Source: Actinopolymorpha pittospori
GTDB lineage: Bacteria > Actinomycetota > Actinomycetes > Propionibacteriales > Actinopolymorphaceae
Assembly (NCBI RefSeq): GCF_014873875.1
Contig: NZ_JADBEM010000001.1
Span: 3,782,001 to 3,846,000, forward strand
Length of the DNA: 64,000 bases
Direction of reading: 5' to 3'
The notes below the pieces were generated by a model that was not told the DNA's origin, did no database searches, and saw only the letters and a program-made list of their open reading frames with translations. Position 1 is the stretch's first letter; each line of letters begins with the position of its first letter. Positions 5,542 through 64,000 of this stretch are shown one piece after another. The translations under genes and the position numbers were made by a program.

Positions 5542-5946
5542 TCATGGCGTGGGCTCGCTCCCGCTGTTCGGGCTGTCGGTCGCGAGCTGACCCAACAGCG
5601 CGGAGAGCTTTCCCTGAACGTCGATGACCTTGCGTGCCTTGTCCAGTTCCGCCTGCAGACGCTCGTTTTCCTTACGCAGCCTGGCGTTCTCCCGCTCCTT
5701 CGGATCAGCCTGTGGACGCCCCGCCGGCTTGGCCAGCGCCGCCAACCCAGCGGCATCTCGCTGGTCCCGCCACGCCGAGATCAGCGATGAATACAAGCCC
5801 TCCCGACGCAACAGAGCCCCCTTGCCGGCCTTGTCCAACGTCTCGTACTCCGCCAGGATCTTCGCCTTGTAGGACGCCGAGTACCTCCGCGTCGCCGCCT
5901 TCGCAGGAACCTCCGGGTCAGGCACCCGCTCATCATTCGAACTCAC
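5542..5946 (-). CDS. IS3 OrfA (DNA-binding transposase subunit)
   Basis: 134 residues with an N-terminal helix-turn-helix ([20 protein letters not shown]) followed by a leucine-zipper coiled coil ([20 protein letters not shown]). In IS3 elements OrfA binds the terminal repeats and makes OrfAB by frameshifting. Its stop overlaps the orfB ATG. Confidence 0.88.
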
Positions 5947-5987
5947 CGTAGAGACGACTCCTCACTCGCCCTCAAAACAACGTATCA

Positions 5988-7255: not shown

Positions 7256-7999
7256 CTCCGGCGCACCGTCGACGCCAGGCCGGTAGGACTCCGGGAGCGC
7301 TTCAAGGGTCAGGTCCAGCAGTGTCTTGTGGTCGGCGATGGTGTTCGACCCGGCGTTTCCGGGCCGAAGGATCCCAGCCAGCGACTCCCCGCCGGAGATC
7401 TCGGGCCGGTCCAGATAGGAGTGCAGCGGATGGAACCCGAAGCTCTTCTTCCAGGTCGGTGCAGCGCCGGACTTCTCGCTGTGAGCGATGGTGATCGTGG
7501 CATCGAAGTCGATGTGCAGATACCCACCGGTGGCCTCCAGGTCCGGGGCCGCTCCCGCCTGCCAGGCCCGCTCACGCGCCTTCGCCCGCGCCTGGCGCAC
7601 CAGCCCCAGATGCTGTTCATCGATCCTGTCGACCAGCCGCCACACGGTCGGCTGACTGGCCACCGCCCCGTGCAGTTGCGGGCGGTCCCGCAACACCGCG
7701 ATCCCCGACGTCGACGTCGCCCCATCGGCGATCGCACACGCCTGATCAGCGAACACCTGCCCCGGGGAGTGAAGCCACGGGCCCCGATACGTGTCAGCCA
7801 ACGCCTGGGTGACGAACCTGGTCAGACCCACGAACTCAGCGAGCTCGCGCAGCATCGACACACCCGCATGCGAGGCCAACCCGTGCCCATCCGAGCTGAC
7901 CCGAAGCCGTGGCCCAGCCATGCCACCCCTGCCGCCAGCCGAACCATCCTTGCCTCGGCGTGCCTTCTTCCCACCCGACGAACCCTTGCTACGCTTCAC
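7252..7999 (-). pseudogene. IS1380-family transposase, N-terminal part
   Basis: About 250 of an expected 450 or so residues: a basic start, then HAGVSMLRELAEFVGLT, GVFADQ-type VFADQACAIADGATS, and the catalytic-core segment YLHIDFDATITIAHSEKSG with the first Asp pair. It stops abruptly at the junction with the membrane-protein fragment near 7252. The remaining DDE half is missing. Confidence 0.85.
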
Positions 8000-8003
8000 C
8001 TAC

Positions 8004-8071
8004 GGAGTGCCTTTCTGCGAGAAAGATCGTTGTCCTCAAACACCGATTCTTCCTTACAGGCAAGGCACTCC
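8004..8071. promoter_or_regulatory. Inverted-repeat leader of IS1380 (IS end plus inner copy)
   Basis: GGAGTGCCTT-CTG-AGAA-GATCG at 8004-8030 faces its near-complement CGATTCTT...AAGGCACTCC at 8044-8071, directly upstream of the transposase start at 7999. A second IS1380 at 10096-10161 has the same layout. One arm is probably the terminal repeat and the other an operator-like copy. Confidence 0.5.
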
Positions 8072-8348
8072 GCCGCATTTAGACCCCGTGCCGCCGACCC
8101 ACGTGAATAGCCGAGGCTAATGAGAGCTACCGGGTTCGTCGTTGAGGCAGACTCGGTGCTTGGTAGCCGCTGGCAGGTGAGCACTCTCCCGCCCTGGATC
8201 TCGGGAGTCCTACAAGCAGATCGTGCCCCTTGCCGGTGGTCGGAAGAGTCGACCGCTGATGGGATGTCGTGCCCGCTGCTCATAGGCGTGAGCACTTGAT
8301 CATTAGGGTGCTGGTGGTTCTTCCGCGGGCTACGTCAACCTGATCGTT

Positions 8349-9596
8349 GTGCGGGACACGGAAGAACGGAGAACGGGGTTGCTGTTCGTCGGAGACGACT
8401 GGGCCGAGGACCACCACGACATCGAGGTGCAAGACGAGACGGGCCGGCGGTTGGCCAAGGCCCGCTTCACCGAGGGGTTGGCCGGCGTCGCTCAGTTGCA
8501 TGAGTTGGTCGCCCAGCACCTGGACGAGGACGAGGCCGACCAGGTCGTGGTCGGTATCGAGACCGACCGTGGTCCGTGGGTGCTCGCGTTGATCGCCGCG
8601 GGCTACCGGGTGTTCGCGATCAATCCGCTGCAGGTCGCTCGTTACCGCGAGCGGCAGAGTGTCTCCGGTGCCAAGAGCGACGCCGCGGACGCACACGCCC
8701 TCGCCGACATGGTCCGCACCGACTCTCATCAGCTGCGTTCGGTCGCCGGTGACAGCGACCAGGCCGAAGCGGTGAAGGTGGTGGCCCGCGCCCACAAGAG
8801 CCTGATCTGGGAACGCACTAGGCATGCGCAACGGCTACGTAACGTGCTGCGGGAGTTCTTCCCCGCGGCGTTGCAGGCCTTCGATGATCTGACTGCCGCC
8901 GATGCCCTTGAGCTGCTTGCCAAAGCCCCCGATCCTGATGCGGCGGCGCGGCTCACCATCGCGCAGATCAGCGCGGCGCTCAAGCATGCCCATCGACACC
9001 ACGCCAGCGACAAGGCCCGGGTGATCCGCGCGGCGCCGCGCACTGAGCAGCTGCGTCAGCCCGCCGCGGTGACGACCGCCTACGCGGCCACGGTCCGTGC
9101 GCAGGTCGCCGTCATCGGCACCCTCAACGCGCAGATCAAGACGATGGGAGCGCAGGTCGAAGCCCATTTTGGTCAGCACCCGGACGCTGAAATCTACCTC
9201 AGCCAGCCCGGCATGGGCCCCATCCTCGGCGCCCGGGTGCTTGCCGAATTCGGAGACGATGACCACCGCTACGCCGACGCCCGCTCCCGCAAGAACTACG
9301 CCGGCACAAGCCCGATCACCCGCGCCTCGGGCAAGAAGAAGACCGTCCTCGCGCGTTACGTCCACAACAACAGACTGATCGATGCACTCGGCCAGCAAGC
9401 GTTCAGCGCCCTGACCGGCTCGCCAGGCGCCCGCTCCTACTACGACGAACTCCGCCGGCGCGGGACCGGCCACCGCGCCGCACTGCGTCAACTCGCCAAC
9501 CGCCTCGTGGGCATCCTGCACGGCTGCCTCAAGACCGGCACCGTCTACGACGAAGCGGCCGCCTGGTCACACCACACCCACACCGCCGCCGCTTGA
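8349..9596 (+). CDS. IS110-family transposase
   Basis: 415 residues from a GTG start. The N-terminal RuvC-like DEDD domain carries LFVGDDWAEDHHDIEVQD, VGIETDRGPWV and SDAADAHALADMV. The C-terminal transposase_20 domain carries YLSQPGMGPILGARVLAEFGD and the Ser-containing YAGTSPITRASGKKK. IS110 elements use a DEDD site plus serine, guided by a bridge RNA from the flanking non-coding ends. A bridge RNA should lie upstream (8075-8348), but I cannot fold it reliably. The gene looks intact and abuts an IS1380 fragment at 9598. Confidence 0.93.
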   Translation: MRDTEERRTGLLFVGDDWAEDHHDIEVQDETGRRLAKARFTEGLAGVAQLHELVAQHLDEDEADQVVVGIETDRGPWVLALIAAGYRVFAINPLQVARYRERQSVSGAKSDAADAHALADMVRTDSHQLRSVAGDSDQAEAVKVVARAHKSLIWERTRHAQRLRNVLREFFPAALQAFDDLTAADALELLAKAPDPDAAARLTIAQISAALKHAHRHHASDKARVIRAAPRTEQLRQPAAVTTAYAATVRAQVAVIGTLNAQIKTMGAQVEAHFGQHPDAEIYLSQPGMGPILGARVLAEFGDDDHRYADARSRKNYAGTSPITRASGKKKTVLARYVHNNRLIDALGQQAFSALTGSPGARSYYDELRRRGTGHRAALRQLANRLVGILHGCLKTGTVYDEAAAWSHHTHTAAA

Positions 9597-9597
9597 C

Positions 9598-10091
9598 AAT
9601 ATTTCGCCATGGGATGTCTGCTTGGCCCGCCCATACACCGGGCGCAACAACGAGTCGATATCGATGAACACCCGATCCTCGATACCCGGCAACAACCCGC
9701 TGGCCTGAACAAGGTTGACCAGATGAGCCCGCGCGACCGAGGCCAACTGCATGCAGTGGCCGTGGGTGAACTCCCGCAGAAACTGGCCAAGCGTCGCCGG
9801 CGCATACACCCCACCAAACAGCCGACGCATCCCACCCGAGCGGATCACATCCAGATCATCGATACAATCCGCGCCCGCGGCCATCCCCGCGATGATCGAG
9901 GCCAGCTTGCCCGCCGGGTTGGCCGCCGCCGAAGCCACCGTCGTCTCCGTGATCGCGACCCGCTCGCCCACCAGCTCCGACAGGCCCGCCCGCTCCGCCA
10001 GCGCCATCACCGGCACCAACCCCGCACACGACACCAGATTCTGATCATCGAACACCGGCGTGGCCCGCGACCACCCATACGGTAGTTTCAC
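9598..10091 (-). pseudogene. IS1380-family transposase, N-terminal fragment cut by IS110
   Basis: Begins MKLPYGWSRATPVFDDQNLV, then AGLVPVMALAERAGLSELV and GGMRRLFGGVYAPATLGQFL, and ends in the first catalytic region (VFIDIDSLLRPVYGRAKQ) exactly where the IS110 begins. A different subtype from the copy at 7.25-8.0 kb. Confidence 0.85.
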
Positions 10092-10095
10092 TCTC

Positions 10096-10161
10096 AGTGC
10101 CTTTTGGATCGGGTTGGATCAGGACCTAGACACTCCAGATTCTCCCGATCCAGAAGGCACT
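10096..10161. promoter_or_regulatory. Inverted-repeat leader of second IS1380
   Basis: AGTGCCTTTTGGATCGGG (10096-10113) and its complement CCCGATCCAGAAGGCACT (10144-10161) differ at one base. They sit just upstream of the transposase start at 10091. One arm is presumably the IS end. Confidence 0.55.
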
Positions 10162-10207
10162 TTCCCTGCTACCGCGCCGAGGCCCACTCACCCGGTCCAC
10201 GGATTGA

Positions 10208-10489
10208 GGCTTAGATCACCGGGCTGACCAGGAGTGCCCTGCGTGTCAAGCAGTCGGTGTTCTGGAGGGCGATGAAGTACAGGACGCTGAGCCACACTTT
10301 GAGCGTGTAGATGATGATGACTATGAGGTCTGGATGGACCTCAGTGTTGGATCGGAGCACTTTAGTTGCCCAACATGCCATTTGGTATTGGACAGTTACG
10401 AACTCATCGAGGAGGCCAAGCTCCCAGTCGAGTTCACCGGCGTCGGCGATTTTGAGGACTTCATGGAGCCCGACTACGGCAACGACTAG
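10208..10489 (+). pseudogene. Zinc-ribbon protein, C-terminal fragment
   Basis: There is no start codon nearby, but the frame reads as protein: CPACQAVGVLEGDEVQD, an acidic stretch (RVDDDDYEVWMDL), FSCPTCHLVLDSYELI, and the end FEDFMEPDYGND before TAG. Two CPxC pairs 49 residues apart form a likely zinc ribbon. The acidic, Asp/Glu-rich composition differs from the surrounding IS DNA. The 5' part was lost near 10207. I do not recognise the parent protein; it may be accessory cargo. Confidence 0.5.
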
Positions 10490-10758
10490 GGCAATAGCCG
10501 GCAGGCCTGCGCTTCCCTCTCCATGCGATCACCTCGCGGCTCTCCTTCATCCGGACGAGTGTTGCGCTGCAGAGGCCTGTAGGTGGCGGCTGCGCACAGT
10601 GCCGTCGATCCGACATGCTGGGTGACTGCTCTGGTGAGGCCACCCTTGATCTCGCCAGCTGCCCCCCTGCGGGAGTGGGGCGGGGACATCGGAAGGCTCC
10701 TGGTCCTGGGCGCTCCGGCAAGGCGATGATCGGATCGCTCAGCCGTCTGCGAGGGGGC

Positions 10759-11286
10759 TTACAAAACGGCACGCCCGAAGTGCGCATAGGTCGGCCCGGC
10801 GTGCAGGGCGTCGACCGCGGATATCAGGCGCCTGACCATAGATGGCCGTAGCCGAGGGCTGGCTTCGTCGATCGTCAAGAACTCGAGGTCCCGGACTTCG
10901 CCGTCACGGGCCGAGAGGCCCTGGGCCTGGTCGCTGTCGAGCACGCCGCCATCGAAGATGAACATTAGCCCGTCGCCCCATATGCCGTGAGCGGGGATCC
11001 AGTCGACGATGAGCAGTGCGCCGGTTGCGAGGTCTAGGCCGATTTCCTCATTGACTTCCCTGCGACACGCATCCCACGGGGACTCATTCTCTTCCGCGAT
11101 TCCGCCTGGGATTTCAAGCGTGGGCTTGTAGGTAGGGTCGACGAAGAAGATTCGCCCGGCCTGATCCCTGATGAGGGTTCCTCCAGCGGTTCGTTTCCTC
11201 GGCAAGCGTGAGGCGATTCCGGGATGGAACTCCTTTTCGGGCTCACCTTCGGCCTGGAGGTCCAGGTCAACGCTGACGCCGGTCAT
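10759..11286 (-). CDS. Nudix hydrolase
   Basis: 175 residues, ATG 11286 after a GAGGAA ribosome site. The Nudix box is clear: GIAEENESPWDACRREVNEEIGL fits Gx5Ex7REUxEExGU, with the metal-binding REVNEE. The enzyme should hydrolyse a nucleoside diphosphate linked to another moiety in the cytoplasm; the substrate cannot be read from the sequence. It is one of the few intact non-transposon genes in the first 18 kb. The broken integrase lies divergently beyond it. Confidence 0.9.
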   Translation of the reverse strand: MTGVSVDLDLQAEGEPEKEFHPGIASRLPRKRTAGGTLIRDQAGRIFFVDPTYKPTLEIPGGIAEENESPWDACRREVNEEIGLDLATGALLIVDWIPAHGIWGDGLMFIFDGGVLDSDQAQGLSARDGEVRDLEFLTIDEASPRLRPSMVRRLISAVDALHAGPTYAHFGRAVL

Positions 11287-11354
11287 ACTTCCTCGCTTCC
11301 CGGATCGGAATATACGGAGGTGGTCAGCGCGACGTGAGCACGCTCCTCAAAGGC

Positions 11355-12050
11355 CCGAGCGACGGTCGACAAGCGCAGCGTCCTGAACCCCGCCCAGGCG
11401 GCGGCGTTGCTGGAGGCAGTGGGGGAGTTGAAGCCGAGCGGGCCGCGACTGAAGCCTTCTTCGGAGCGATGTACTACGCCGGCCTCCGCCCCGAGGAGGC
11501 GGTCGAACTCCGAATGCCGAACCTCGACCTGCCTGCGGTCGGATGGGGAGAGATCCACCTCGATCATGCGGCCCCAGATGCGGGCTCCGCGTGGACCAAC
11601 AACGGTGAGTCCCGCGAGCGTCGTCAGCTGAAACACCGGGGCGTCGGCGACGGCCGGACCGTGCCGTGCCCGCCGCAGCTGACGGCGCTGCTGCGTGCGC
11701 ACCTCCAGCGCTTCGGAGTGGACCAGGATGGGCGACTCTTCCGGGGAGTGCGCCAGGGACGGCAGCCGGACTCCAGCACCTACGAACGTGCCTGGCGAAA
11801 GGCCCGGGAGGCTGTCCTCACTCCTGCGCAGGCCAGGTCGCCCCTAGGAAGGCGGCCGTACGACCTGAGGCATGCAGCGGTAAGCACATGGCTCAACGCA
11901 GGCGTCGGAGCCGCTCAGGTTGCGGAATGGGCTGGCCACAGCCTCAAGGTCCTTCTTGATATCTATGCCCACTGCATCGACGGCGAAGAGAGCGCTGCCC
12001 GCCGGCGTATTGATGCTGCATTGGCCGAGGCGCGCCAGAGCAGCCACTGA
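11355..12050 (+). pseudogene. Tyrosine recombinase/integrase, truncated and frameshifted
   Basis: Linker sequence TVDKRSVLNPAQAAALLEAV lies in one frame to about 11454. A missing base (AAGCC where AAGGCC is expected) then shifts to FFGAMYYAGLRPEEAVELRM. The catalytic residues are visible: Arg in GLRPEEA, the H-x-x-R box in YDLRHAAVSTWL, and the Tyr nucleophile in LLDIYAHCIDG after EWAGHS. The N-terminal arm- and core-binding domains are missing. It is a candidate for the enzyme that once inserted the tRNA-Tyr-bracketed element, though it lies 7.5 kb from the nearest attachment repeat. Confidence 0.8.
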
Positions 12051-12362
12051 GGGGGCACGCGGCCGTCCTAACGCGCGGCTGATGGTGCGCGGAGGAGTCT
12101 CGTGGCGTCGCTCACACGAACTCTCCCCGGATGGTCGCCTCGAGGCCGTTGTGAGCCGCCCGGATATTCATCGCGACGCCCGCCAGCTCCAAGCGTTGCT
12201 TTATCGCCCACTCGTCGTCGTAGTGGCCATGCTCGTGGAGGATTCGGGCGTGTGCCCGCGCCCTAAAGAGTCACCCGTTGAAGTCCTGTACCTTCAACTC
12301 CCGGAGGCGCTTGTAGACATCCTTGCCTGCGACGACCCGTGCCCGGGCGAGAAGGCTATCTA

Positions 12363-13544
12363 GTGTCATGTAATTGAATTCACTTTACTTTCAATGGTGC
12401 TTGTGAAACAATTTTGGTATGCAGCAGCTTACGGAGGAGCGGCGTAGCGAGTTGGAGTCGGTTGTGTCTGTCGGGTACGACGGCTCGGTGTCGATGCGGG
12501 CACAGATGGTGCTGGCGTGGTTCGATGGTGAGAGTGCCGCGGATATTGCGAGGCGCTTCGGAGCGTCGAAGCCGACGGTGTATAAGTGGGTGGACCGATT
12601 CGAAGAGGCCGGCGTAGCGGGGTTAGACGACCGTACGTCGACTGGCAGGCCTCGTTCTGTGTCTGATTCGGTGCGGTCGCGGATTGTGGCGTTAACGAAG
12701 CTCGGCCCGCCGAAAGAAACGGGGCTGACGCACTGGTCGAGCTATGAGATGGCCAAGTATCTGAGACGCCGTGAAGGTATCAGCGTCTCGCACAACTTCG
12801 TCGCCGAATTGTGGCGTGAGCACGGCTTGAAGCCACATCGGCAGGGCACGTTCAAGACCTCCACCGACCCGGAGTTCGCGACCAAAGTGGTCGACGTCGT
12901 AGGCCTTTACCTCGATCCGCCCGAGGGTGCGGTGGTGCTCAGCTTCGACGAGAAGACGCAGGTCCAGGCTCTGGACCGGACCCAGCCGCTACTGCCGATC
13001 AGCTTCGACAAGACCGAGAAGCGCACCCACGACTACGTCCGCCACGGCACCACGAACCTGTTCGCCGCCCTTGAGGTGCTCACCGGAAAAATCACCGGAC
13101 AAACCTTCCACCGAAAGCGGACCAAAGAGTTCCTACGCTTCATGGAACGACTGGTCAAACGGTACCCGGCAGAGCAAGAAATCCACGTAGTCCTCGACAA
13201 CCTCAAAACTCACAACAACGGCGACGTCAACGAATGGCTGGCCAAACACCCCAACGTGAAGTTCCACTTCACGCCGAAAGGTAGCTCCTGGATCAACCAG
13301 ATCGAAACATGGTTCGGCATCATCACCCGGCAATCCATCCGCCGCGGCTCCTTCAAATCCCTCGCCGAGCTGATCCGCCATATCGAGAACTACATCGACC
13401 ACTGGAACGAAGACGCCGAGCCGTTCGAGTGGACAGCGACAGCCGATCAGATCCTTGAGAAAGTAGCCATGCTCGACCGCGACTACGTGAAGCTGGTCGC
13501 CAACAACTACAAGCCCAAGTAAAGCACTTTTAATTACGACACAC
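12363..13544 (+). mobile_element. IS630-family element 1
   Basis: Flanked by duplicated TA (12361-12362 and 13545-13546), the standard IS630 target. The terminal repeats TAGTGTcatGTAATTgAA and TAGTGTgtcGTAATTaAA are mirror-matched, and both continue to CTTTAC. Inserted in the small membrane-protein gene. Confidence 0.92.
12419..13522 (+). CDS. IS630-family transposase
   Basis: 367 residues, intact. The helix-turn-helix ESAADIARRFGASKPTVYKW is followed by the linker WSSYEMAKYLRR. The DDE core has LSFDEKTQVQALDRTQ, HVVLDNLKTHNN and SSWINQIETWFG, giving D, D and E. It recognises the IS ends and inserts at TA. Confidence 0.95.
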   Translation: MQQLTEERRSELESVVSVGYDGSVSMRAQMVLAWFDGESAADIARRFGASKPTVYKWVDRFEEAGVAGLDDRTSTGRPRSVSDSVRSRIVALTKLGPPKETGLTHWSSYEMAKYLRRREGISVSHNFVAELWREHGLKPHRQGTFKTSTDPEFATKVVDVVGLYLDPPEGAVVLSFDEKTQVQALDRTQPLLPISFDKTEKRTHDYVRHGTTNLFAALEVLTGKITGQTFHRKRTKEFLRFMERLVKRYPAEQEIHVVLDNLKTHNNGDVNEWLAKHPNVKFHFTPKGSSWINQIETWFGIITRQSIRRGSFKSLAELIRHIENYIDHWNEDAEPFEWTATADQILEKVAMLDRDYVKLVANNYKPK

Positions 13545-13776
13545 TAGCTCGTCGGGGTCTGTCTCCGGAAGCTCCGCGATCGGGATCGCTGACCACGTAC
13601 CCGCGTTGTCCACGAAACGGGCGCTGACCTTGAGAAGCTCGCTGTAGATGTCGAGTCGCCGTGTGCGTAGCTGCTCTTACTTCGTCGCCCTGCGACGCAA
13701 GGGCTCGGTAATGAGCGGTGGCAGTGCGGTGGCCGTCAAGGTGCCTGCGATGCCAGCGATACCTAGTCCTAGCCTA

Positions 13777-49914: not shown

Positions 49915-50392
49915 CAACTTCATTGAGAATCCACCGATGAGCTTCGGGTGAGTGGGTCTGGTCCGTTTTGGTTTCGGTGGTGTGTGTGGGGGCGGCGTGG
50001 AGTCCCGGACCTCGCCTGTCCGGTTGTTCCACTGGTAGGTCTCCGGTCGGGCCGCGTGCGGCGGGTGGTCAGGTCGGGATCGTTGTGGGTGGGCCGCAGG
50101 TTCGGGTGAACAGGTCGGTCCATCCGCTTTGCCATGGCCAGGCGAGTGGGAGGTGGAGTGTGAGGCGTCTGGCGGAGGTCGCGATCCGGGCGGGGACGTT
50201 GACCAGCGTGCGGCGGATGGTGGCGGTGGTGGCTTTGGCCAGCGTGGGGCCGGTGAGGGTGGCGGCGGCGCGGGTGAGGTTGAAGGCAATGACGGCGAGG
50301 ACGAGCCAGGCGGCGTTGGCGGCGAACTTGCCTGATGGCAGGTTGACCCGTTTCTGACTTTGCGATAGAGATTCGCGTCGGATTAGCCAACA

Positions 50393-51484
50393 TCATCGGG
50401 GGTCCGGGTCGGGTTGAGTGTGCCGGTTGTTGCGGTGCCAGGCAAGCCTGGTTTGGTGGGCTCGTTCGAGCCCGTCTCGGCGGGCTTTGCGGATGGCTTG
50501 CCCGCGTCCGTCGTGTTCGTCGTTCGGGGTGACGTAGCCGATCGACTCGTGCAGGCGAACGCCGTTGTAGAACGACCGCACCTCGGCGAGCTCGGCACGT
50601 AGCGTGACTGGGTCGGTGATGGCGAGCAGGTGCGGGTGTTCGCGTTTGACGTGCCCGAACAGCGACTCGATCCAGCCCTGGTCCTGCGGGACACCGGGAC
50701 GGCCGAAGTGCTGGGCGATCGCGCACATGGCCAGGAACTCCCGGGTCGACCCGGACCGCATCTGCGGCCCGTTGTCGGAGACAGCGAGCAGGATCGGCAG
50801 CCGTTCATCGTCGGCGCCTGACAGGTCGACCCGGCCGGTCTCGCCGCGGGCGATCGCCTCATCCCACAGGCCTCTTCCTCGAGTGCGGCGGTGAACGCGA
50901 GCTCGACCTGGGTGGAGGTCTCCTCGGATGAGACATGCGTCGATAGCCACTTGCGCGAGACCAGATCCTCCACCACGGTCACGTTCATCCCGCACCTGGT
51001 GAAGTGGGTCGTGTCGTAAACCCACAGCTGCCTGGGCCGGTACTCGACCCAGGCGGGGAACGGCTTGCGGACCGACCGTCCCGGCCGTGGCAGTGGCCGG
51101 AACCGCTTGTCGTGCAGGAAAAGCACCCTTCGCACCGTCGACGGCGACACCCACACCACACCGGTGTAGGAGCCGCGGTGGGCGAGCTTGCGATGGGACC
51201 GGTCGGTCTCGGCCCATAGGTCGAACAGCTCAAGGATCGCCGCCTCCTCAGCCGGCAGCAGGCCATGGGACGGGCTGCCGCCCGGCGTATTGTCGGCCAG
51301 CCCAGAACCGTGGCCGGCTCGGTCGACCCACCGGTAGTAGCGCAGCTCGTTCAGCTGCAGCACCCGGCGCGCGTCTCGGACAGTCCAGCCCTGGCCCGAC
51401 GCCTCGCCGATGAGGTCCAGCAGCCCAGCCTTGGCGGCCGCGTCGACCCGTCGTGGGATCACACCCTCGAACCCCAGCCGTCTT
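50393..51484 (-). pseudogene. IS3 OrfB, one frameshift
   Basis: Reads on from orfA by an overlap near 51484: VIPRRVDAAAKAGLLDLIGE, QLWVYDTTHFTRCGMNVTVV (first Asp), a break near 50877 (GAGGCCTG where GAGGGCCTG is expected), then LLAVSDNGPQMRSG (second Asp) and DQGWIESLFGHVKREH (Glu). The single G loss is the only damage. Confidence 0.85.
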
Positions 51485-51812
51485 TTCCCTCCACCAACGT
51501 GAGCTTGACCGCCATCTCCTTCAGGGCCTCCCCGAGCCGGGCCGCCTCGGCACGAGCCTGCTCCAGCTCCCAGTCCCGCTCGGCCTGCTGCCGGCCCGGC
51601 TTGGACGCCGCAAGGGCCGACAACGCGCCCTCCTTGGCCACGGTGCGTATCCGCATGATCGTCGACCGATCCACCTGATACTGCTCGGCCGCCTCGGCGA
51701 TTGTGGTCTCCCCACGCACCAGCTGAAGCCAGATCTCGTACTTCTGCGACGGCGAGAGAAACCTCTTCGCCCTGCGTCCCGCACGATCGGTCGAGCGCTG
51801 CCCATCTGCCAT
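51459..51812 (-). CDS. IS3 OrfA
   Basis: 117 residues: HTH (SPSQKYEIWLQLVRGETTIA, YQVDRSTIMRIRTVAKEG) and a coiled-coil C-terminus (WELEQARAEAARLGEALKEM). Ends over the orfB frame, as expected for programmed -1 frameshifting. Confidence 0.88.
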   Translation of the reverse strand: MADGQRSTDRAGRRAKRFLSPSQKYEIWLQLVRGETTIAEAAEQYQVDRSTIMRIRTVAKEGALSALAASKPGRQQAERDWELEQARAEAARLGEALKEMAVKLTLVEGKDGWGSRV

Positions 51813-53043
51813 GATCAGATCCTCCCGTCAGGGTCGGAGGACCCACCAGATGTTGTCTGATAGACGGACCGATCTCTATCGCGAAGTCAGACGCAAACCA
51901 AGGTGGGCCAAGGCCGCGTTCTTCAGGTCGGCGTGGACTTGTTCGATGATTGCGTGGTGGCGGTGGGTCTTGTCCGGGGTCACCGTGTCCCATCACACCT
52001 GGATCGGTGGTGGTGAAGAACGCGTGGAACCGCCAGGTGGTGAAGATGGTGTCCTGGCCCTGTCCGGCTTTGGGATTGAGGTCGGGGATACGTCGCACGA
52101 TCAGTCGGCCTGGAACCTGCTCGGACTTCTTGGCCGAGGAGAACGCGGTGAAGTCGATTTCGGCGACCTCGGCGCGGGAGATCCACTGTCGGGTCGCTTC
52201 GTCGAAAACTGCGTCGGTGTACTCGATGGTCTGCCAGGCGGCCTCGCTGATGGAGGTGATGGCCTTCTTGACCGTCGCGTCCAGGCGGAGGGTGACCGAC
52301 ACGTCCGCGCCAGCGCTGATGGCGGTCACGATGGTCGCCCGGCCGTAGAAGGCCGAATCGGCTCGGAGAGCGGCTTGGCCCGCGCGGTCGGGCCACGCAA
52401 CTGGGCAAGGGTGGCCGGCGCGTCAGCGACCAGCCGTTTCGCGCCTCGCGCGGACCCGCATGAGCCTTTGCGTAGCCGCTGCGCAACGATCACCGGCGCG
52501 GCTTGGCTGGTGGTCACGGTCGCCAGCAGCGCGTTGAGTCCACGCACCCCGGAGTAACCGAATCCTGCGCCCTGTTTGGCATAGCCGTGGACCTCGATGA
52601 TCGTGTCATCGATGTCGAGGAGCGCGTACTCCTCGATCCCGGCCATCAGCGGCGTCTTGTTCGCCAGACCGACCAGTAGCCTCGAGGCGACCTCATCGAG
52701 CTGACGGATATGGCCGAAGGCGAACGCCCGCAAGAACGACCCCAACGTTGACGGCGCATACACGCCATTGAAGACCCGACCCATCCCACCATGGCGCAGC
52801 AGCCCCATGGCGTCTGGAGCAGTGTCGAAGCTGGTCAGACCGGCCCGGGTCTGCATTCCCTCGCTGCTTGGCGACGCCCTGGTCGACATCTGGCCACGCG
52901 ACCGCTACACCGCAGACCGGATCGGCGGTCCCCAAGCCGCCGCGATCATCGGGACCATCGAGCGCGTAGAGCTGTCGACCTGAAACGGGGCGCCCCACGT
53001 TCACGTGGGGCAGGTCGAACCTGGCGGTCCAGCCGAGCGGCTA

Positions 53044-56435: not shown

Positions 56436-56732
56436 TCAACGTGACGGTGCCACGGCGACGTGTTGATCCGGCCGATCCACCTCAACGACCGCTATCTGCT
56501 CCCCAGTCAGCGCACGCGCGAGGCCAGCGCCATAGGATCCAGTACCTTCGACACCAACTTTGATCACGTCACCCAACTGCCTGAGCCAACCGATCAGCTG
56601 CCGGTAGCCAGTAGGTGTCGCAGCGAACTCCCGATCTGCGATCACCTCACCAGCACGACTGATCGCAGCCGCATGATGAGTGCGCCCGTGGGTGTCAACA
56701 CCGCCGTAGACCTCCGGCCTGTTCCTCGCCAT
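56436..56732 (-). pseudogene. IS110-family transposase, N-terminal fragment
   Basis: ATG 56732: VYGGVDTHGRTHHAAAISRA, VIKVGVEGTGSYGAGLARAL (the DEDD Asp and Glu), VAVVEV-type IAVVEVDRPDQHVAVAP. Ends after about 90 residues; 56279-56435 is unrelated, though it shares TAGCTACTTCGACCTGAAA with 45484. Confidence 0.8.
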
Positions 56733-56825
56733 CCTGGATGTGCCGTCTCTTCTGCGATAGCTGTGGCGGCACGCATCCGGCTGGGCGGGCGGACAGGAGA
56801 GTGATCGGGGCCTCAGCACAGGCTC

Positions 56826-57089
56826 CTATGAGGTCACGACGCTCGTCCGGTCGCGTGCCGAGTCGAGTTGGTCAGCCCCGCCGACGGATCTGGCTAAAGA
56901 CACAGCCGTTGCGCTGATTCGTCCGGTCCGGGCTTGGCTGGCCGTAGGGGCGCCACAGATCGCGTCGGCCTCCGCACCCATCAGCGCGTCGATGAACGTG
57001 GCGAGCAGTTGACGCAGCAGGTCTGGCGAGGCCTGAGCCAGCTGCTCATGCAGGAACCGGTCAGGGGTCATACTGGGCTTGGCGGTCAT
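56826..57089 (-). pseudogene. IS256-family transposase, N-terminal fragment
   Basis: ATG 57089: MTPDRFLHEQLAQASPDLLR, QLLATFIDALMGAEADAICG matches the start of mutator-type transposases. The next conserved block is degenerate. 57090-57276 has no gene and separates this debris from the intact phn operon. Confidence 0.75.
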
Positions 57090-57276
57090 CGCATGTACTC
57101 CTTCGGAAGGACTGTGAGAGGTCTTCATGAGGATCACGCGATGACCGCCCTAGACGACTACGACACGCCCATCAACGAGCGCCTGCGGTACACCACTCTG
57201 CTGGACGCCACTGAGGTGCCAATCACGTTCTACCTGCGCTGCCGCCGTACCGCGGCCTGAGTTGGCGCCCAGTTGA

Positions 57277-58470
57277 TCATGCGACGGACTTGAACGTCGT
57301 CACCACCGACGGCCAGGTGCCGCGGTCGTCGATCAGGGCGAAGTCGGCGAGCAGTCCCTGATCGATCCGGCCGCGGTCGGGCAGCCCGCCGACGGCCGCC
57401 CCGCCGGCGGTGATCAACTTGATCGCCGCCGGCAACGTGAGCAGGCGCAGGTTCACCACCCGGGACACACAGCCGAGCAGGGCGCTGGCCAGGTAGTCCG
57501 ACGAGACCGCGTCGATCAGCCCTTCGCGCAGCAGGTCGGCGGCCGAGACGTTTCCCGAGTGCGAGCCACCGCGCAGCAGGTTCGGGGCGCCAGCAACGAT
57601 CAGCAGCCCACGTTCCCTGGCCCGCCGGGCCGCCTCGATGGTCGTCGGGAACTCGGCGACGACGCCACCCCGCTCCACCAACTCGTCGATCGCCTCGGGT
57701 GAGTCGCAGTCGTGGCCGAGCAGCCGGGCCGTACCGGTGCGGGCGAGTTCCCCGGCCCAGGCCAGGTTGGCCTCCCGAACCTGCTCGGTGCGTTTAGCGT
57801 CCTCGATCCGCTCGTACACCCGGCGGGTGGCGTCGGCACGATCGGCGCCGCCGGAGACCAGGAAGTCGATATGTCGCTCGACGTCGGCGTACTGGCCCTG
57901 GCCCGGCGTGTGGTCCTCGTGGGAGAGCTGGACCGGCAGCCGGGACGGCGGCAGGCTCTCGATCCGCTGGCGGAGGACTTCAGCGCCCTCCTCGGCACGG
58001 ACGTTGAATCGGTGCAGCACTCGGTGGTCGACCCGGCTGCCGCGGTAGCCGTCGATGAACGAACTCATGCTGTTGGACTGAACCGGATCCCGGCGTACGC
58101 CGTGGGATGAGTTGTTGTGGAATCCCAGGCCGTGGAAGATCGTCGTGATCCCGACCCCGGCGACCCGCGACTCGAACGAGCCGATCGCGAAGTCCAGCGG
58201 CAGGTGGACCGAGGGCCGGGGCGTACGTTCCTTCTCCAGGGCGTCGCTGTGGGTGTCGATGAACCCCGGTGTGAGCAGCAGACCACCGCCGTCGACGTCG
58301 CCGCGCAGGCTCGGACCCTCGACGACCTCGGCGATCCGGCCGTCGGTGACCGCAACCGACGCTGGATCGGTGACCCGGTCACCCAGCACCACCCGGACGT
58401 TGGAGATCACGTACGTCGCCGGGGACGTCCCGAGCTGCCAGGTGTGCGCGGTCTCCCCGATGGCGGTCAC
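57277..58470 (-). CDS. phnM: PhnM, ribose 1-methylphosphonate 5-triphosphate diphosphatase
   Basis: 397 residues, amidohydrolase fold. The metal motif LLTPGFIDTHSDALEKERTP replaces the usual H-x-D-N form; LPVQLSHEDHTPGQGQY, LLGHDCDSPE and AVSSDYLASALL supply the further His/Asp ligands. PhnM cuts pyrophosphate from the triphosphate made by PhnI, giving the PhnJ substrate. Its ATG overlaps the phnL stop (ATGA), so the two are translationally coupled. Last gene of the operon in the window. Confidence 0.94.
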   Translation of the reverse strand: MTAIGETAHTWQLGTSPATYVISNVRVVLGDRVTDPASVAVTDGRIAEVVEGPSLRGDVDGGGLLLTPGFIDTHSDALEKERTPRPSVHLPLDFAIGSFESRVAGVGITTIFHGLGFHNNSSHGVRRDPVQSNSMSSFIDGYRGSRVDHRVLHRFNVRAEEGAEVLRQRIESLPPSRLPVQLSHEDHTPGQGQYADVERHIDFLVSGGADRADATRRVYERIEDAKRTEQVREANLAWAGELARTGTARLLGHDCDSPEAIDELVERGGVVAEFPTTIEAARRARERGLLIVAGAPNLLRGGSHSGNVSAADLLREGLIDAVSSDYLASALLGCVSRVVNLRLLTLPAAIKLITAGGAAVGGLPDRGRIDQGLLADFALIDDRGTWPSVVTTFKSVA

Positions 58471-59237
58471 GCGAAGACCTCGTCTAGCACGGTATGGCCG
58501 GCCGACAGCACCTCGTCGGGCGTGCCGTCGGCGGCGATGACACCACCGTCCATCAGCAGGACGCGATCGGCGACCCGGCGGATGACCGTCATGTCGTGGT
58601 AGATCGCCAGCACGCTCACGTCGTGATGATGCAGATCCTCGATCACCTCGAGGGCCAGCGCCCGGTTGGCCGGGTCGAGCGCCGAGACCGGCTCGTCGAG
58701 CAGCAGCAGCCGCGGCGGGCTCACGGTCCCGGCGGCGAGATTGACTCGCTGCCGTTCGCCGCCGGACAGCACCGAGCAGTCGACATCCCAGAGCCGCTCC
58801 TCGATGCCGAGCCTGGTCAGCGAGACGGCGGCCGCCTGTTCGGCCTCCTGGTGGGCCAGCCCGCGGCGAAGCGCGGCATTGGTGACCAGGCGCAGCGGGC
58901 CCTGCCGCGGCGGTGCGTTCAGGAACTGCGAGACGTAGCCGAAGTCGCGGCCGCGCAGCCGTGCCATCCTGCGGTCGTCCAGTGCGGTCAGGTCGATCGT
59001 GGTGTCGCCGTCGTGCAGGATCACGGTGCCGGAGTTGGGCAGGTAGTTGCGCACGATGCAGCGCAGCAGGCTCGACTTGCCTGCGCCGCTCGCGCCGGCC
59101 AGGGCCAGGTGTTCACCCTCGTACAGGGTGAAGGACACCGCGGTGAGCGACTGCACGAAGCGGTTGATGGCATGCAGGGTGAAGGACATGCTCAGGTTGT
59201 CGACCGTCAGCACCGGCGCTGGGTTGTCGTGGGTCAT
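58467..59237 (-). CDS. phnL: PhnL, C-P lyase accessory ATPase
   Basis: 256 residues, ABC-type ATPase without membrane domain. Walker A ALAGASGAGKSSLLRCIV, signature VLSGGERQRVNLA, Walker B PRLLLLDEPVSALD and H-loop LAIYHDMTVI. The family motif RDFGYVSQFLNAPPR (YVSQFLRVIPR in enterics) identifies PhnL rather than PhnC. In enteric systems PhnL binds on top of PhnK in the lyase complex. Starts 14 bases after the phnJ/K stop. Confidence 0.93.
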   Translation of the reverse strand: MTHDNPAPVLTVDNLSMSFTLHAINRFVQSLTAVSFTLYEGEHLALAGASGAGKSSLLRCIVRNYLPNSGTVILHDGDTTIDLTALDDRRMARLRGRDFGYVSQFLNAPPRQGPLRLVTNAALRRGLAHQEAEQAAAVSLTRLGIEERLWDVDCSVLSGGERQRVNLAAGTVSPPRLLLLDEPVSALDPANRALALEVIEDLHHHDVSVLAIYHDMTVIRRVADRVLLMDGGVIAADGTPDEVLSAGHTVLDEVFA

Positions 59238-59251
59238 CGGCGGTTCATCTC

Positions 59252-61039
59252 TCAGCTGCGGGCAGCTGCGACGAGCTGCTGGGTGTACGGGTGGTGGGGG
59301 TTGGCGAACAGCTGGTCGGTGAGGCCTGTCTCGACGATCCGGCCCTCCTTCATGACGACCGCGCGATCGGTGAGCGCGGAGATTACCGAGAAGTCGTGGC
59401 TTACAACGACGACGGCCAGCTCACGCTCGGCGAGCAGCTCGCGCAGCAGGTCCAGAACGCCGGCCGCGACCGAGGCGTCCAGGCCGGTGGTCGGCTCGTC
59501 CAGCAGCAGTACCTGTGGGTCAGTGGCCAGGGCCTTGGCGATCTGGACGCGTTGCCGCATGCCGCCGGAGAACTGCCCGACGACGTCGTCCATCCGGCTC
59601 AGCGGCACCTCGACCCGGTCGAGCAGCTCGGCCGCCCGCTGCCGGATCTGGTGGTACGAACGCCAGCCGGCCGCGATCAGCGCGTCGGCGATGTTCCCTC
59701 CGGCCGAGATCCGCAGGTTCAGCCCCATCGCCGGATCCTGGTAGACGACGCTGAGGATGTTGGTCCGCAGCCTCCGGCGCAGCGGCGGCGCCCACCCGAG
59801 CAGGTTGGCCCTGCCGGCGCCGACCGCGCCGATGTAGACCGCTCCGGTCGACTCGAGTTCGTCGCCGATGATGCAGCGCATCACGGTTGACTTGCCGGAG
59901 CCGGATTCGCCGATCACGCCGAGCGCCTCGCCGGGCGCGACGTCGAAGCTGATGTCGCGGGCCGCAACCACCTCGGAGGATACCCGGCTGCCACCGAACA
60001 CCTTGCCGAGCCGATCGACCTTCAGCGACCAGTCCTCGCCGGGCGCGGTGATCCCGGCCGGTGCGACCGGACGCTGTCCCGGATCGACGTGCACGGTCTG
60101 GCGTACGCGCTTGGACGGGTCGGGGTAGTAACGGCGCGGCACCAGCGGGTCGCGGCGCGCCTGATCCACGACACCGGCCCGGACCTTGAGGCAGAACTGG
60201 ACGTCGGAGCAGATGTAGTCGCCGGTCCTGGTCTCGACCATGAACGACTCGTCCGAGCCGCACTTGGCGCAGCGCACACCCTCGAGGTACTCCACTTCGA
60301 ACGGTACGTCGTCGAACCGCAGCGGCTCCACCCTGGTGTGCGGCGGCACTGCGTAGATCTTCTTGTCCCGGCCATGGCTGAGGATGGTCAGATGGTCGCT
60401 CTGGTTCAGCCGCGGTACGTCCCAGCGGGGGATCGGGCTCGGGGCCATCAGGTAGCGGTCGTGCACCAGCACCGGGTGGCCGGCGCCGGTGCCCATCACC
60501 CCGGTCAGCGCCAGCCGCTCGTAGAGGTGCACCCACATCTTGGCGTAGTCGGCCTCGGCATGCCGTCGCTTGCACTCGTACACCGACTTCTCGACCACAC
60601 GCAGCGGCTCGGACTGTGGCACCTGGAGAACCAGGATCCGGCCGTTGCCCATCGGCTCCTCGGGGACCCGGTGCCGGGACTGGACGATGGTCGCGTCGTC
60701 GGTGTCGGCGGTCGAGCCGCTGCCGAGGGTGCCGACGATCAACCGCCGCAGGTTGACGGCGTTGACGCCTTCCTCGTCGCCCTGGTCGATGACCTTGACG
60801 TTGTCGGCCGGGCCGCCGATGGCGAGGGTGACCTGCAGTCCGCCGGATCCCCAGCCGCGGGCGACCGGCATCTCCCGGGAGCCGAACGGCACGATGTAGC
60901 CGGGGATACAGATGCCGGAGAGTACGGCCCGGCGGACCTCCCGCTTGGCCTGCTCGTCCATCACCACCGGGCGGCCGTCGTTGGAGTCCGGGGGCAGCAG
61001 CGGCGTGATCACAGCCGTGCCGTCGATCGTGGTTGTCAT
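59252..61039 (-). CDS. phnJ-phnK: PhnJ-PhnK fusion: radical-SAM C-P lyase joined to its ATPase
   Basis: 595 residues from ATG 61039 (GGGAGAAG upstream). Residues 1-300 are PhnJ: GICIPGYIVPFGSREMP and GWGSGGLQVTLAI (the Gly-radical region), and Cys 257, 260, 277 and 283 in RCAKCGSDESF and YICSDVQFCLK, the CxxC...C...C set for the 4Fe-4S cluster and active-site thiol. Residues 301-336 are a Pro-rich linker. Residues 337-595 are PhnK: GESGSGKSTVMRC, SVVYQDPAMGLNL, QFSGGMRQRVQIAKAL and VLLLDEPTTGLD. The joint has no stop or start-like site, so it is one polypeptide. PhnJ cleaves the C-P bond; PhnK docks on it in the known complex. Confidence 0.93.
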   Translation of the reverse strand: MTTTIDGTAVITPLLPPDSNDGRPVVMDEQAKREVRRAVLSGICIPGYIVPFGSREMPVARGWGSGGLQVTLAIGGPADNVKVIDQGDEEGVNAVNLRRLIVGTLGSGSTADTDDATIVQSRHRVPEEPMGNGRILVLQVPQSEPLRVVEKSVYECKRRHAEADYAKMWVHLYERLALTGVMGTGAGHPVLVHDRYLMAPSPIPRWDVPRLNQSDHLTILSHGRDKKIYAVPPHTRVEPLRFDDVPFEVEYLEGVRCAKCGSDESFMVETRTGDYICSDVQFCLKVRAGVVDQARRDPLVPRRYYPDPSKRVRQTVHVDPGQRPVAPAGITAPGEDWSLKVDRLGKVFGGSRVSSEVVAARDISFDVAPGEALGVIGESGSGKSTVMRCIIGDELESTGAVYIGAVGAGRANLLGWAPPLRRRLRTNILSVVYQDPAMGLNLRISAGGNIADALIAAGWRSYHQIRQRAAELLDRVEVPLSRMDDVVGQFSGGMRQRVQIAKALATDPQVLLLDEPTTGLDASVAAGVLDLLRELLAERELAVVVVSHDFSVISALTDRAVVMKEGRIVETGLTDQLFANPHHPYTQQLVAAARS

Positions 61040-61052
61040 GGCTTCTCCCGGC

Positions 61053-62210
61053 TCAGTGCTCGTGGCCGTCATGGTCCTCGTGATCTTCGTGATCTTGGTT
61101 GTCGTCCTCGGCCAGCCGATGCAGCAGCGCCTCGGCCTCGACCCGTGCGGCCATGGCCGCGTCCAGCCTGGACTGGAACGTGACGAAGTGCGGCAGCTTG
61201 AGATGCTCCAGGAAGCCGCTGGTCGCCAGCCCGTCGGTGGTGTGCAGCAACAGCTGCTCCATCCGCTTGCCGGTGTCGGTACCGCGGAACCGCCAGGCCA
61301 CGATGTCCAAGGACGCGGCGGCGATCGCCTTACGCTCGTTGTGCCCGAGCGCCATCGCATAGCCGATGTCGTAGGTGGTCGGATCCTCGCCGCGCTGCCC
61401 GCCGAGGTGGGCGACGGCCTCGGTCTCGGAGACCCGGATCCGGCCGATCTCGGTCAGCTCGCCGGTGTGCGGGTGCGCGACCCGTACCGGAAGCCGGCCG
61501 TGCCGGACCTCGCCGAGGGTGACGCCTTCGGACGGGTAGCCCTCGGGCCCGAGGACGCCCTGGTACCAGATGTTGATCAAGGCGCCGGTGTCGGCCTGGG
61601 ACATCATCGACAGCCACGCCGAGCGTGACGCGGGCAGCCGTGGGGCCACCATCTGGATGTCGAACGGCTGCTCGTCGGTCTGGACGTGCCGGTCGACGAG
61701 GACACCCTTGTCGTCCAGGTAGTCGCGGAACCTGCGGAACGGCTCGTCGGCCGGGTGCTGCAGTTCGAGGTCGACCTCGTCGGGCTCGTCGATGATCGGC
61801 AGCGGCAACTCCGGACCGTCGTGCAGGATGCGTGCCGTGTAGTCGACGGTCTCGCCCAGCAGGATCGGCCCGTCGGGCTGGCGCTGGGTCGACACCACAC
61901 GGCGCAGCAACTGCATCTCACGCGGGTTGAGCGGATGGCTGAAGGCCAGCCGCGGGAGGGTCGAGCGGTGCGCCCGGATCAGGTGCACGGCTTCGGTGAT
62001 GTCGCCGTTGGCCTGCAGGAACGCCGCCGCCGCGGTCGCCTCGTCCCACAGCCCGGCCTCGCCCATGATCCGGTCGATGGCCATCGGGAAGGAGGCGACG
62101 ACCGACTCGTGTGTCAGGCCTGAGTCGAGCTGTGCCCGGCGCTCCAGGACGAGTCGCTCGGCGGCGATGATGGCCTCGGTGCCGCCCTTGTTGGTACCTG
62201 CGTAGGACAT
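61053..62210 (-). CDS. phnI: PhnI, C-P lyase core subunit (nucleosidase)
   Basis: 385 residues. MSYAGTNKGGTEAIIAAERL is the canonical N-terminus (YVAVKGGExAI). HPLNPREMQLLRRVV, SAWLSMMSQADTGALINIWY, LGHNERKAIAAASLD and HVTFQ-type LPHFVTFQSRLDA follow. With PhnG, H and L it exchanges adenine of MgATP for a phosphonate. The tail is rich in His/Asp (EDHEDHDGHEH), a possible metal-binding extension not general to the family. Its ATG overlaps the phnH stop by one base. Confidence 0.94.
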   Translation of the reverse strand: MSYAGTNKGGTEAIIAAERLVLERRAQLDSGLTHESVVASFPMAIDRIMGEAGLWDEATAAAAFLQANGDITEAVHLIRAHRSTLPRLAFSHPLNPREMQLLRRVVSTQRQPDGPILLGETVDYTARILHDGPELPLPIIDEPDEVDLELQHPADEPFRRFRDYLDDKGVLVDRHVQTDEQPFDIQMVAPRLPASRSAWLSMMSQADTGALINIWYQGVLGPEGYPSEGVTLGEVRHGRLPVRVAHPHTGELTEIGRIRVSETEAVAHLGGQRGEDPTTYDIGYAMALGHNERKAIAAASLDIVAWRFRGTDTGKRMEQLLLHTTDGLATSGFLEHLKLPHFVTFQSRLDAAMAARVEAEALLHRLAEDDNQDHEDHEDHDGHEH

Positions 62211-62833
62211 CAGGCGAGCTCGACTTTCGTCGTACGGGAGAGGGCGGCGACCCGGCCCTCATCGGTGACCAGCAGGACGTCGATCCCGGCCGGGTAATCG
62301 GAAACCAGGTCCGCGCGTACGTCCAGGAATTCCTCGCTCAGGCCGGCCACCTCCAGAGCGGAATGGCGTTGGATGCCCGGGCCGGTGAGGGTCCAGCCGC
62401 CGGTCTCGCGGAGGTCGGTGACACGCTGGAACAGCATCGCCCCGGCTTCCGGCGACCAGTGCGTACCGGTGTTCAGGCGCCGGAACTCCCGGGGATCCGG
62501 CTCACCGAATGCCAGGGCGTACCGAGTGGACTCCAAGTCGGCTACCGGGGCCACCGTCAGCCGGGCAGCGAGCTCAAGGGCCTGGTCGACCGGCTGGCCG
62601 GGTGTCGGGAGCGCGGCGATCGGCGTCATGATGTCGGCCAGCATCAGTAGCGGGATCATCACCGCCGGAACACCATCGGGTACGGCCTCCAGCGGCAACT
62701 GCTGCAGGGTTCCCGGCTCTGAGAACGCCTCCATGATCGCGCGGAAGGCTTGCTGGGCGGTGTCCGGCGGAAGCTCGCGCGGCGTCGGCCAGTCGGCGAC
62801 CGGCCGGACCGGCATGGCGGTCGTCGTGGTCAC
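62210..62833 (-). CDS. phnH: PhnH, C-P lyase core subunit
   Basis: 207 residues from GTG 62833, which overlaps the phnG stop (GTGA). TAQQAFRAIMEAFSEPGTLQ (QxxFRxxMxAxSxPG) is the family signature; later LALPTPGQPVDQ-type and FGEPDPREFRRLNTGTHWSP, TLTGPGIQ. PhnH is a PLP-transferase-like fold without PLP that dimerises in the PhnGHI core. Confidence 0.92.
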   Translation of the reverse strand: MTTTTAMPVRPVADWPTPRELPPDTAQQAFRAIMEAFSEPGTLQQLPLEAVPDGVPAVMIPLLMLADIMTPIAALPTPGQPVDQALELAARLTVAPVADLESTRYALAFGEPDPREFRRLNTGTHWSPEAGAMLFQRVTDLRETGGWTLTGPGIQRHSALEVAGLSEEFLDVRADLVSDYPAGIDVLLVTDEGRVAALSRTTKVELA

Positions 62834-63276
62834 GGGATCTCCTCGAATTCGACGATGGACGGGGTCAGCCGCTCCCATTCGGCGGCGCGCTCGACCCGGC
62901 GCCGGTCCTCGGTCCGGTCGGCGAGTGCCTCGATCTCGGTGGCGCGCGGGCCGCCTGCCTGCCACTCGGCGGCCAGGATCGCCCCGGCCAGCGCGGCGAC
63001 ACGGTCCGAGCCCAGCCGCATCGACCAGCCGAAGGTGCCGCGGCGCTGCACCTCGGCCTGGGTCACCAGCACGTCGCCGAGGATGAAGCGCTCTTCGGCG
63101 ACGGTGTCGCGTACCTGGGTCACGACGACCCCGACGGTCGGCGGCCGGGTGACGGTGACGTCGGGATCATCGATCAGGCAGGCGGCGGCGAGGTCGATCA
63201 CCGCACGGGGGTCGGCCTGGTTGAGTTCGGAACTGAGTCGCGCTCGCGGGGAGGGCTGTGTCAACTGCGATGTCAT
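62830..63276 (-). CDS. phnG: PhnG, C-P lyase core subunit
   Basis: 148 residues. PPTVGVVVTQVRDTVAEERF, ILGDVLVTQAEVQ and FGWSMRLGSDRVAALAGAIL match the family (GxxMxRxRDxxxxxxFxLGEVLVTEA). PhnG forms the (GHIJ)2 core. Separated by 46 bases from phnE, the longest gap in the operon. Confidence 0.92.
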   Translation of the reverse strand: MTSQLTQPSPRARLSSELNQADPRAVIDLAAACLIDDPDVTVTRPPTVGVVVTQVRDTVAEERFILGDVLVTQAEVQRRGTFGWSMRLGSDRVAALAGAILAAEWQAGGPRATEIEALADRTEDRRRVERAAEWERLTPSIVEFEEIP

Positions 63277-63322: not shown

Positions 63323-64000
63323 TCATTTGACGGTCTGTCGGGTCCAGACCGCGAGGCCCTCGGAGCACAGCACCAGGGCGACGACGCCGATCAGGCAACT
63401 GGTGACGAGGCTGTACTGCAGGACCCGGGTGGCGTCGCTCATCAGGAAGCCGATGCCGCCGGCGCCGATCACGCCCATGCTGGTGGCTCCGCGGACGTTG
63501 GTGTCGAGCTGGTGCATGGTGTGGGCTGCCAGGGCAGGCATCACCTGGCGGAATGTTGCGGTGAAGAAGACCTGGGAGGCACTGGCACCGGAGGTGCGTA
63601 CGGCGTCCTGGACGCGGATGTCGACGTCCTCGAGGGAGTCGGCGATGATCTTGCTGAAGAACCCGATCGCATGCACGCCGAGGGCGAGGGCGCCGGCGGT
63701 CGCGCCGAGTCCGGTGATCACCACGAAGACGATGCCGACGATGATCCCGGGGACGGCGCGGATGGTCACGACGAGGAGCCGGAAGAAGCCGGAGACGTAG
63801 CCGTTGCGTACCACGTTGTTGGCCGACAGCAGGCCGAGCGGGATGGCCAGGATCAGCCCGAACAGGGTACCGGCCAGGCCCATCTGGGCGGTCTCGATCA
63901 GGCCGACGACGATGCTCGGGAACTGGCCTGCGGTGGTCGGCGGGAAATAGAGCCGGATGGCTTTCCACGCCGACTGGACCCCCTCGGTGAAGCCGACGAC
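63323..64000 (-). CDS. phnE: PhnE, phosphonate ABC-transporter permease (partial)
   Basis: The frame is open to the window edge; 225 residues are present. LYFPPTTAGQFPSIVVGLIE, ETAQMGLAGTLFGLILAIPL, AVPGIIVGIVFVVITGLGAT, then the EAA-type loop DSLEDVDIRVQDAVRTSGAS and QLDTNVRGATSMGVIGAGGI (binding-protein-dependent permease box). It imports phosphonate with PhnC and PhnD, expected just outside the window. Confidence 0.93.
   Translation of the reverse strand, partial: VVGFTEGVQSAWKAIRLYFPPTTAGQFPSIVVGLIETAQMGLAGTLFGLILAIPLGLLSANNVVRNGYVSGFFRLLVVTIRAVPGIIVGIVFVVITGLGATAGALALGVHAIGFFSKIIADSLEDVDIRVQDAVRTSGASASQVFFTATFRQVMPALAAHTMHQLDTNVRGATSMGVIGAGGIGFLMSDATRVLQYSLVTSCLIGVVALVLCSEGLAVWTRQTVK

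Follow-up and report, generated by a model that had tools for sequence, protein, structure and literature searches.

The C-P lyase operon of Actinopolymorpha pittospori raises the question whether one gene can encode both the radical enzyme PhnJ and the ATPase PhnK, how such a gene arose, and what a covalent link between the two would mean for the complex. In the window (the whole 64,000-nucleotide stretch of DNA that was analyzed), a single open frame on the minus strand runs from an ATG at 61039 to a stop at 59252 and comprises 595 codons (595 aa). A Shine-Dalgarno-like GGGAG (61045..61049, minus) lies 5 bases upstream of the ATG, after the phnI stop; an alternative, longer frame start at 61360 falls inside phnI. 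The PhnJ part (residues 1-288; 60176..61039, minus) contains the Pfam PhnJ domain at residues 27-287 (PF06007, 351.1 bits against a gathering cut-off of 25) and equivalents of the four cluster cysteines of E. coli PhnJ (C241, C244, C266, and C272) and of Gly32, a glycine that was taken together with these cysteines as a mark of PhnJ. It is followed by a linker between the aligned domains (residues 289-337; 60029..60175, minus) and by the PhnK part (residues 338-595 and the stop; 59252..60028, minus), with an ABC_tran domain at residues 361-518, a Walker A, Q loop, signature, Walker B and H switch, and equivalents of the Walker A, signature, Q90, D170/E171, and H204 of E. coli PhnK. The initial annotation of this DNA had proposed a complete PhnJ and a complete PhnK in one polypeptide, with all four cluster/active-site cysteines and the Walker A, signature and Walker B kept, and the frame, the Pfam domains and the aligned motifs bear this out.

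Against the NCBIfam equivalog model for PhnK (TIGR02323) the C-terminal half scores 205.5, under the curated cut-off of 302.85. The unfused PhnK of the same genome fails as well (220.6) and E. coli PhnK passes (412.3); as both actinobacterial proteins fall short, we read the failure as a cut-off that misses the two PhnK proteins tested, which is of relevance for annotation. The half is placed after phnJ and before phnL, and it groups with operon PhnK proteins in a tree composed of such proteins only, with no transporter ATPases as outgroup. AlphaFold2, run on the fusion as a single chain with 60 rows, yielded a model with a mean pLDDT of 86.7 and a pTM of 0.84. In Foldseek searches its PhnJ half, 44-45% identical to E. 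coli PhnJ, reached a TM by target of 0.91-0.93 (0.93 to 7z19_D), and the best-ranked matches of the K half were PhnK chain I of 7z15-7z19 (0.87-0.91), with several transporter ATPase domains also reaching about 0.9. Operon place, motifs and fold support the identification as PhnK, at a score below the TIGR02323 cut-off. A transporter ATPase was considered for this half and ruled out on operon place, motifs and the Foldseek results. With the caveat on the PhnK cut-off, the locus is classified from its sequence as a C-P lyase variant in which PhnJ and PhnK are fused, with SAM-dependent C-P cleavage as the predicted activity.

The fusion gene is embedded in an operon with the order phnG, phnH, phnI, phnJ~phnK, phnL, phnM, all on the minus strand. 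The other core genes, which had been taken to be intact, are so at the level of profile matches: phnG (62830..63276, minus; PF06754, 69.5 bits), phnH (62210..62965, minus; PF05845, and TIGR03292 with 119.9 over a cut-off of 91.5), phnI (61053..62210, minus; PF05861, 264.5 bits), phnL (58467..59237, minus; TIGR02324 as best NCBIfam match, at 210.2 bits under the curated cut-off of 256.3) and phnM (57277..58470, minus; NF011984 with 271.7 over a cut-off of 260, and TIGR02318 with 301.1 under 390.55). The true start of phnH is probably internal, the Pfam match beginning at residue 66. Upstream lies the 3' part of a phnE gene (63323..64000, minus) that runs past the window and continues in the adjoining stretch (locus L120, 324-2072, minus), in which phnC, phnD and an RpiR/SIS-type regulator are also found. 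This phnE holds two permease domains in one frame of 582 aa, as is the case at several other phn loci, both with fused and with unfused J/K. The RpiR/SIS-domain regulator (L120, 3985-4899, minus) precedes the window operon; in five other loci with a fusion (L042, L043, L044, L046, and L047) the regulator position is taken by a match to a GntR-like (PhnF-like) gene of another operon of the A. pittospori genome, described below.

Two further phn loci are present in the same genome. The first (L003; G000:C1:4131000-4150000, about 5806-13774, minus) is a second C-P lyase operon, unfused, with the order phnG-H-I-J-K-L-M and a GTGA overlap between the phnJ stop and the phnK start; it also includes a putative GntR-like regulator gene and a putative inositol-monophosphatase-like gene. 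As this unfused operon is present, the main C-P lyase of the host may be other than the fused one. The other (L121; G000:C1:6088000-6101000, about 3002-8645, plus) comprises a phnE-like double permease, phnG, the 5' part of phnH, the C-terminal half of a PhnK that is 89% identical to that of the window, phnL and phnM; phnI, phnJ and the N-terminal half of PhnK are gone, a pattern that an internal deletion would leave. Directly downstream of phnM in the window, transposase fragments are located at 56436-57137 (minus), with matches of IS110 type (over the cut-off) and of Mutator type (just under it); further on, at 50383-52329 (minus), a longer frame matches HTH_32 and, weakly, rve. Together these features suggest a mobile history.

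One conceivable reading is that the operon of the window was gained horizontally as an additional copy, is now in decay and makes no use of the fusion. The absence of a PhnJ match from five of the six genomes searched in the genus, the transposase fragments and the loss of phnI, phnJ and half of phnK at the third locus would all fit such a history; the window phn genes, however, are open frames with profile matches, and the three parts of the fusion, compared with its nearest relative, show dN/dS values of 0.14-0.21. We regard decay as unlikely.

The gene is not restricted to A. pittospori. Whole-genome searches with PF06007 found PhnJ in 1 of 6 genomes of the genus, 2 of 8 of the family, 12 of 391 of the order, 11 of 394 of the class and 15 of 396 of the phylum (the samples overlap, and the genome of the window is included in each). 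Of the 13 PhnJ places in the order sample, 7 are fusions; the class and phylum samples contain no fused place other than that of the window. From a protein scan of named genomes, 80 of 108 related stretches were retained as loci. Altogether 118 loci were examined, with 80 frames containing PhnJ, 17 of which also contain PhnK; after dropping five second copies with identical proteins, 12 distinct fusions remain. Calling a fusion by frame length alone was rejected, as locus L018 has a frame of 697 aa and yet a separate PhnK.

The hosts include Microlunatus parietis, M. speluncae, Enemella evansiae, E. dayhoffiae, Granulicoccus phenolivorans, and Nesterenkonia muleiensis, as well as MAGs labelled Pseudonocardia, Propionibacteriaceae and Actinomycetales. 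Judged by their record titles, nine of the 12 belong to the Actinomycetota, and the window and two other genomes share their order with one of these nine. In the family of genome G388, which encodes the same fused protein as M. parietis, PhnJ occurs in 12 of 198 genomes and is fused in 8 of the 12. The G-H-I-J~K-L-M order is found at eight of the 12 fused loci, and at three others (L014, L015, and L045) the stretches are too short to tell. At L039, from the Pseudonocardia MAG, phnH to phnM are present, and a search of 7 kb of upstream DNA gave no phnG; upstream of 7001 at this locus, an RpiR-like stretch and phnH share one stop-to-stop frame.

Each of the six other fused genomes of the order has a single PhnJ match, the fused one. 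Among the matches listed for these six, ordered by E-value (with 150 candidates scored in G173 and G388), no separate PhnK was seen, the best K-like match outside the fusion being at most 45% identical, and a separate PhnK is likely to be absent from them. In plasmids, no J-K fusion was seen among the best 30 of 194 records matching at E <= 1e-60, and the eight listed records that cover at least 80% of the query do so in two pieces each, six of them with named separate J and K genes. Phyla beyond that of the window were sampled through the named-genome scan and the plasmid search.

The homologs, then, are not always encoded by two genes, the case that the initial annotation would have counted against the fusion. 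The same stop-free fusion is present, aligned end to end, in 12 distinct genomes and MAGs, and hence is not an assembly error. A frameshift in assembly or sequencing that hides a stop has nothing specific in its favor other than the listed contamination of this genome (8.3%), whereas the architecture is shared by 12 distinct assemblies and the linker is of coding type, which makes such an artefact exceedingly improbable. Chance read-through was likewise considered, and is ruled out by the conserved coding linker.

Trees of PhnJ and PhnK were built from 74 rows each, 12 fused and 62 unfused including E. coli; the PhnJ locus L054, beside which no K frame was found, was left out. In both trees one branch, with 100/100 support and recovered in 100% of 200 bootstrap trees, separates the fused rows from all others, and none of the unfused rows lies within the fused clade; long branches elsewhere were flagged in both. 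The sister group in the J tree (87/80) is an unfused actinobacterial group of 11 rows, among them Streptomyces, Spongiactinospora and the second A. pittospori operon, and the nearest rows in the K tree are four from Streptomyces (94/85). At all 11 sister loci of the J tree a four-base overlap (ATGA or GTGA) links the phnJ stop to an ATG or GTG in the phnK frame, so that a small frame change at this place would join the genes. Most likely the fusion arose once, by such a change near the phnJ/phnK overlap. The two genes were probably coupled translationally before they were joined, and the fusion seems to have turned a translational coupling into a covalent one.

Catalytic residues are retained throughout the clade; the contact residues compared are those described in the structural work on E. 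coli (PMC9947105). In the J half of all 12 fused proteins the four cluster cysteines, Gly32, Y158, and D229 are kept, as are the Walker A, Q90, R78, R116, the signature, D170, E171, and H204 in the K half. Y118 of PhnK is kept in 11 of 12 and D228 of PhnJ in 9 of 12 (lost in three); E149 of PhnJ is Asp in all 12. D226 of PhnJ and R82 of PhnK are replaced in all 12, and also in the five of five unfused actinobacterial rows that were compared. For binding to the central insertion domain of PhnJ the picture is mixed: among the E. coli contact residues, Y158 and D229 of PhnJ and R78 and R116 of PhnK are retained, D226 and R82 are not. Over four close pairs, dN/dS (Nei-Gojobori) amounts to 0.07-0.18 for J and 0.08-0.14 for K, and both domains are under purifying selection. 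The linker, at 0.21-0.61, is below 1 in all four pairs as well, with a dS of 1.97, near saturation, in the pair that includes the window. The earlier expectation that the fusion is likely functional is in line with its conservation, the retained catalytic residues and the purifying selection, and we consider the protein probably functional on this sequence evidence.

The linker is longer than the 36 residues first proposed: it measures 49 residues between the aligned domains, or about 41 if counted by eye between the positions equivalent to the ends of the E. coli proteins, and ranges from 47 to 64 residues across the 12 fused proteins. The description as Pro-rich holds for the window (17% proline) and not as a family trait, the content being 7-17% over the 12. 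Two motifs recur, PDP in 11 of 12 and TA-x-G ahead of a conserved Trp in 12 of 12, and no motif of the PDP/TA-x-G type was found in the 13 unfused PhnJ tails compared, which end 7-49 residues past the last cluster cysteine. In the AlphaFold2 model block means of pLDDT lie at 89-94 over residues 281-310 and at about 60 over residues 311-330, from which the first 22 or so linker residues (289-310), which hold a PDP-x-x-R motif in the window, are predicted to be an ordered extension beside PhnJ, and about 20 residues (311-330) to be a flexible tether; the TAPGEDW stretch comes after the latter.

Both the linker and the overlap bear on the possibility that coupled, overlapping genes merged by chance, leaving the mechanism unchanged. 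Such a neutral or near-neutral fusion would share the anatomy described here and deny only a functional gain. The overlap at every one of the neighboring unfused loci would make the joining event easy, and the linker evolves faster than the domains and varies in length; on the other hand, the clade contains no unfused row, and part of the linker is conserved, predicted to be ordered and missing from the 13 unfused PhnJ tails compared. We rate a neutral or near-neutral fusion as a serious possibility, somewhat short of an even chance.

The linker could also allow PhnK to be made separately, by internal initiation or by proteolysis. In-frame GTG, ATG or TTG codons are present within the linker or the next 30 codons at all 12 fused loci, and a protease could plausibly cut in the flexible stretch. 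In only one of the 12, however, is such a codon preceded at a suitable distance by a GGAG-type stretch (the search used a short list of motifs of this type, and leaderless or weak-signal starts are outside its reach), and release of PhnK by internal initiation is accordingly unlikely; we consider separate production by either route quite improbable. The initial annotation had also held that the fusion fixes the stoichiometry of the two proteins. A 1:1 ratio holds if PhnK is not released, and 11 of the 12 loci are without a GGAG-type internal start signal; a fixed 1:1 ratio of PhnJ to PhnK, with two PhnK per core, is likely.

Taken as a whole, we consider it highly probable that the gene is an inherited fusion confined to one clade, with a single origin by frame change, which would result in two covalently held PhnK domains per core. 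If the E. coli complex is taken as a guide, a (PhnG PhnH PhnI PhnJK)2 assembly would be expected, and PhnL would dock on the fused PhnK domains. The C-terminal extension of PhnJ (about 289-310) would stay with the PhnJ domain, and the 20 or so flexible residues would let PhnK reach the central insertion domain of PhnJ and open and close with ATP. Since the linker leaves directly from the cysteine-cluster domain of PhnJ via the extension predicted to be ordered, opening of the PhnK dimer could pull on the radical domain. PhnK might then be a built-in motor domain, with ATP use tied through this pull to every opening of the active site and the state with one PhnK abolished; we put this forward tentatively, as a doubtful but possible extension. 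PhnK action during each catalytic cycle, which the fusion had been thought to imply, is compatible with the tether, as are occasional gate-opening and a neutral fusion.

In E. coli, PhnJ mediates PhnK binding, a single PhnK on the core represents a state unfit for hydrolysis, and a pair of PhnK with a pair of PhnL forms the ATPase that opens the core on turnover, according to the part of PMC9947105 available to us; its Discussion states that why and when ATP is spent is unclear. A natural fusion should fix the two-PhnK state and could provide a stable complex for cryo-EM. With the tether cut or shortened, one can ask if PhnK has to dissociate during turnover or may remain in place throughout, and the fusion could be of use in testing by what means the radical enzyme is driven by its ATPase. 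A literature search of partial coverage returned no published description of a PhnJ-PhnK fusion, and there is no mention of one in the accessible parts of PMC9947105, PMC10574752, and PMC7866108.

Domain fusion in phosphonate breakdown has a counterpart in the fungal PhoF, in which the oxygenases PhnY and PhnZ are fused (PMC10574752, as far as accessible); unlike the PhnJ-PhnK fusion, PhoF belongs to an oxidative pathway and consists of other proteins. The unfused actinobacterial C-P lyases (Streptomyces, Spongiactinospora, and the second operon L003) are the nearest in the trees and have the same operon order. They differ in having separate genes with the ATGA/GTGA overlap and, for most, in the N-terminus of PhnK: about 20 additional residues (TGP...TG), ahead of the strand that runs into Walker A, are found in 9 of 10 unfused PhnK N-termini compared (L003, L005, L038, L049, L051, L052, L053, L055, and L056) and are absent from the unfused L037 and from all 12 fused PhnK. 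The C-P lyase of E. coli (PDB 4xb6, 7z15-7z19) has the same subunits and the same gene order, G-H-I-J-K-L-M, as the window. There phnJ and phnK are separate genes that, by their coordinates, overlap by four bases, in contrast to the one gene of the window, and a core that carries just one PhnK is isolable (PMC9947105, accessible part), which a 1:1 fusion should not give.
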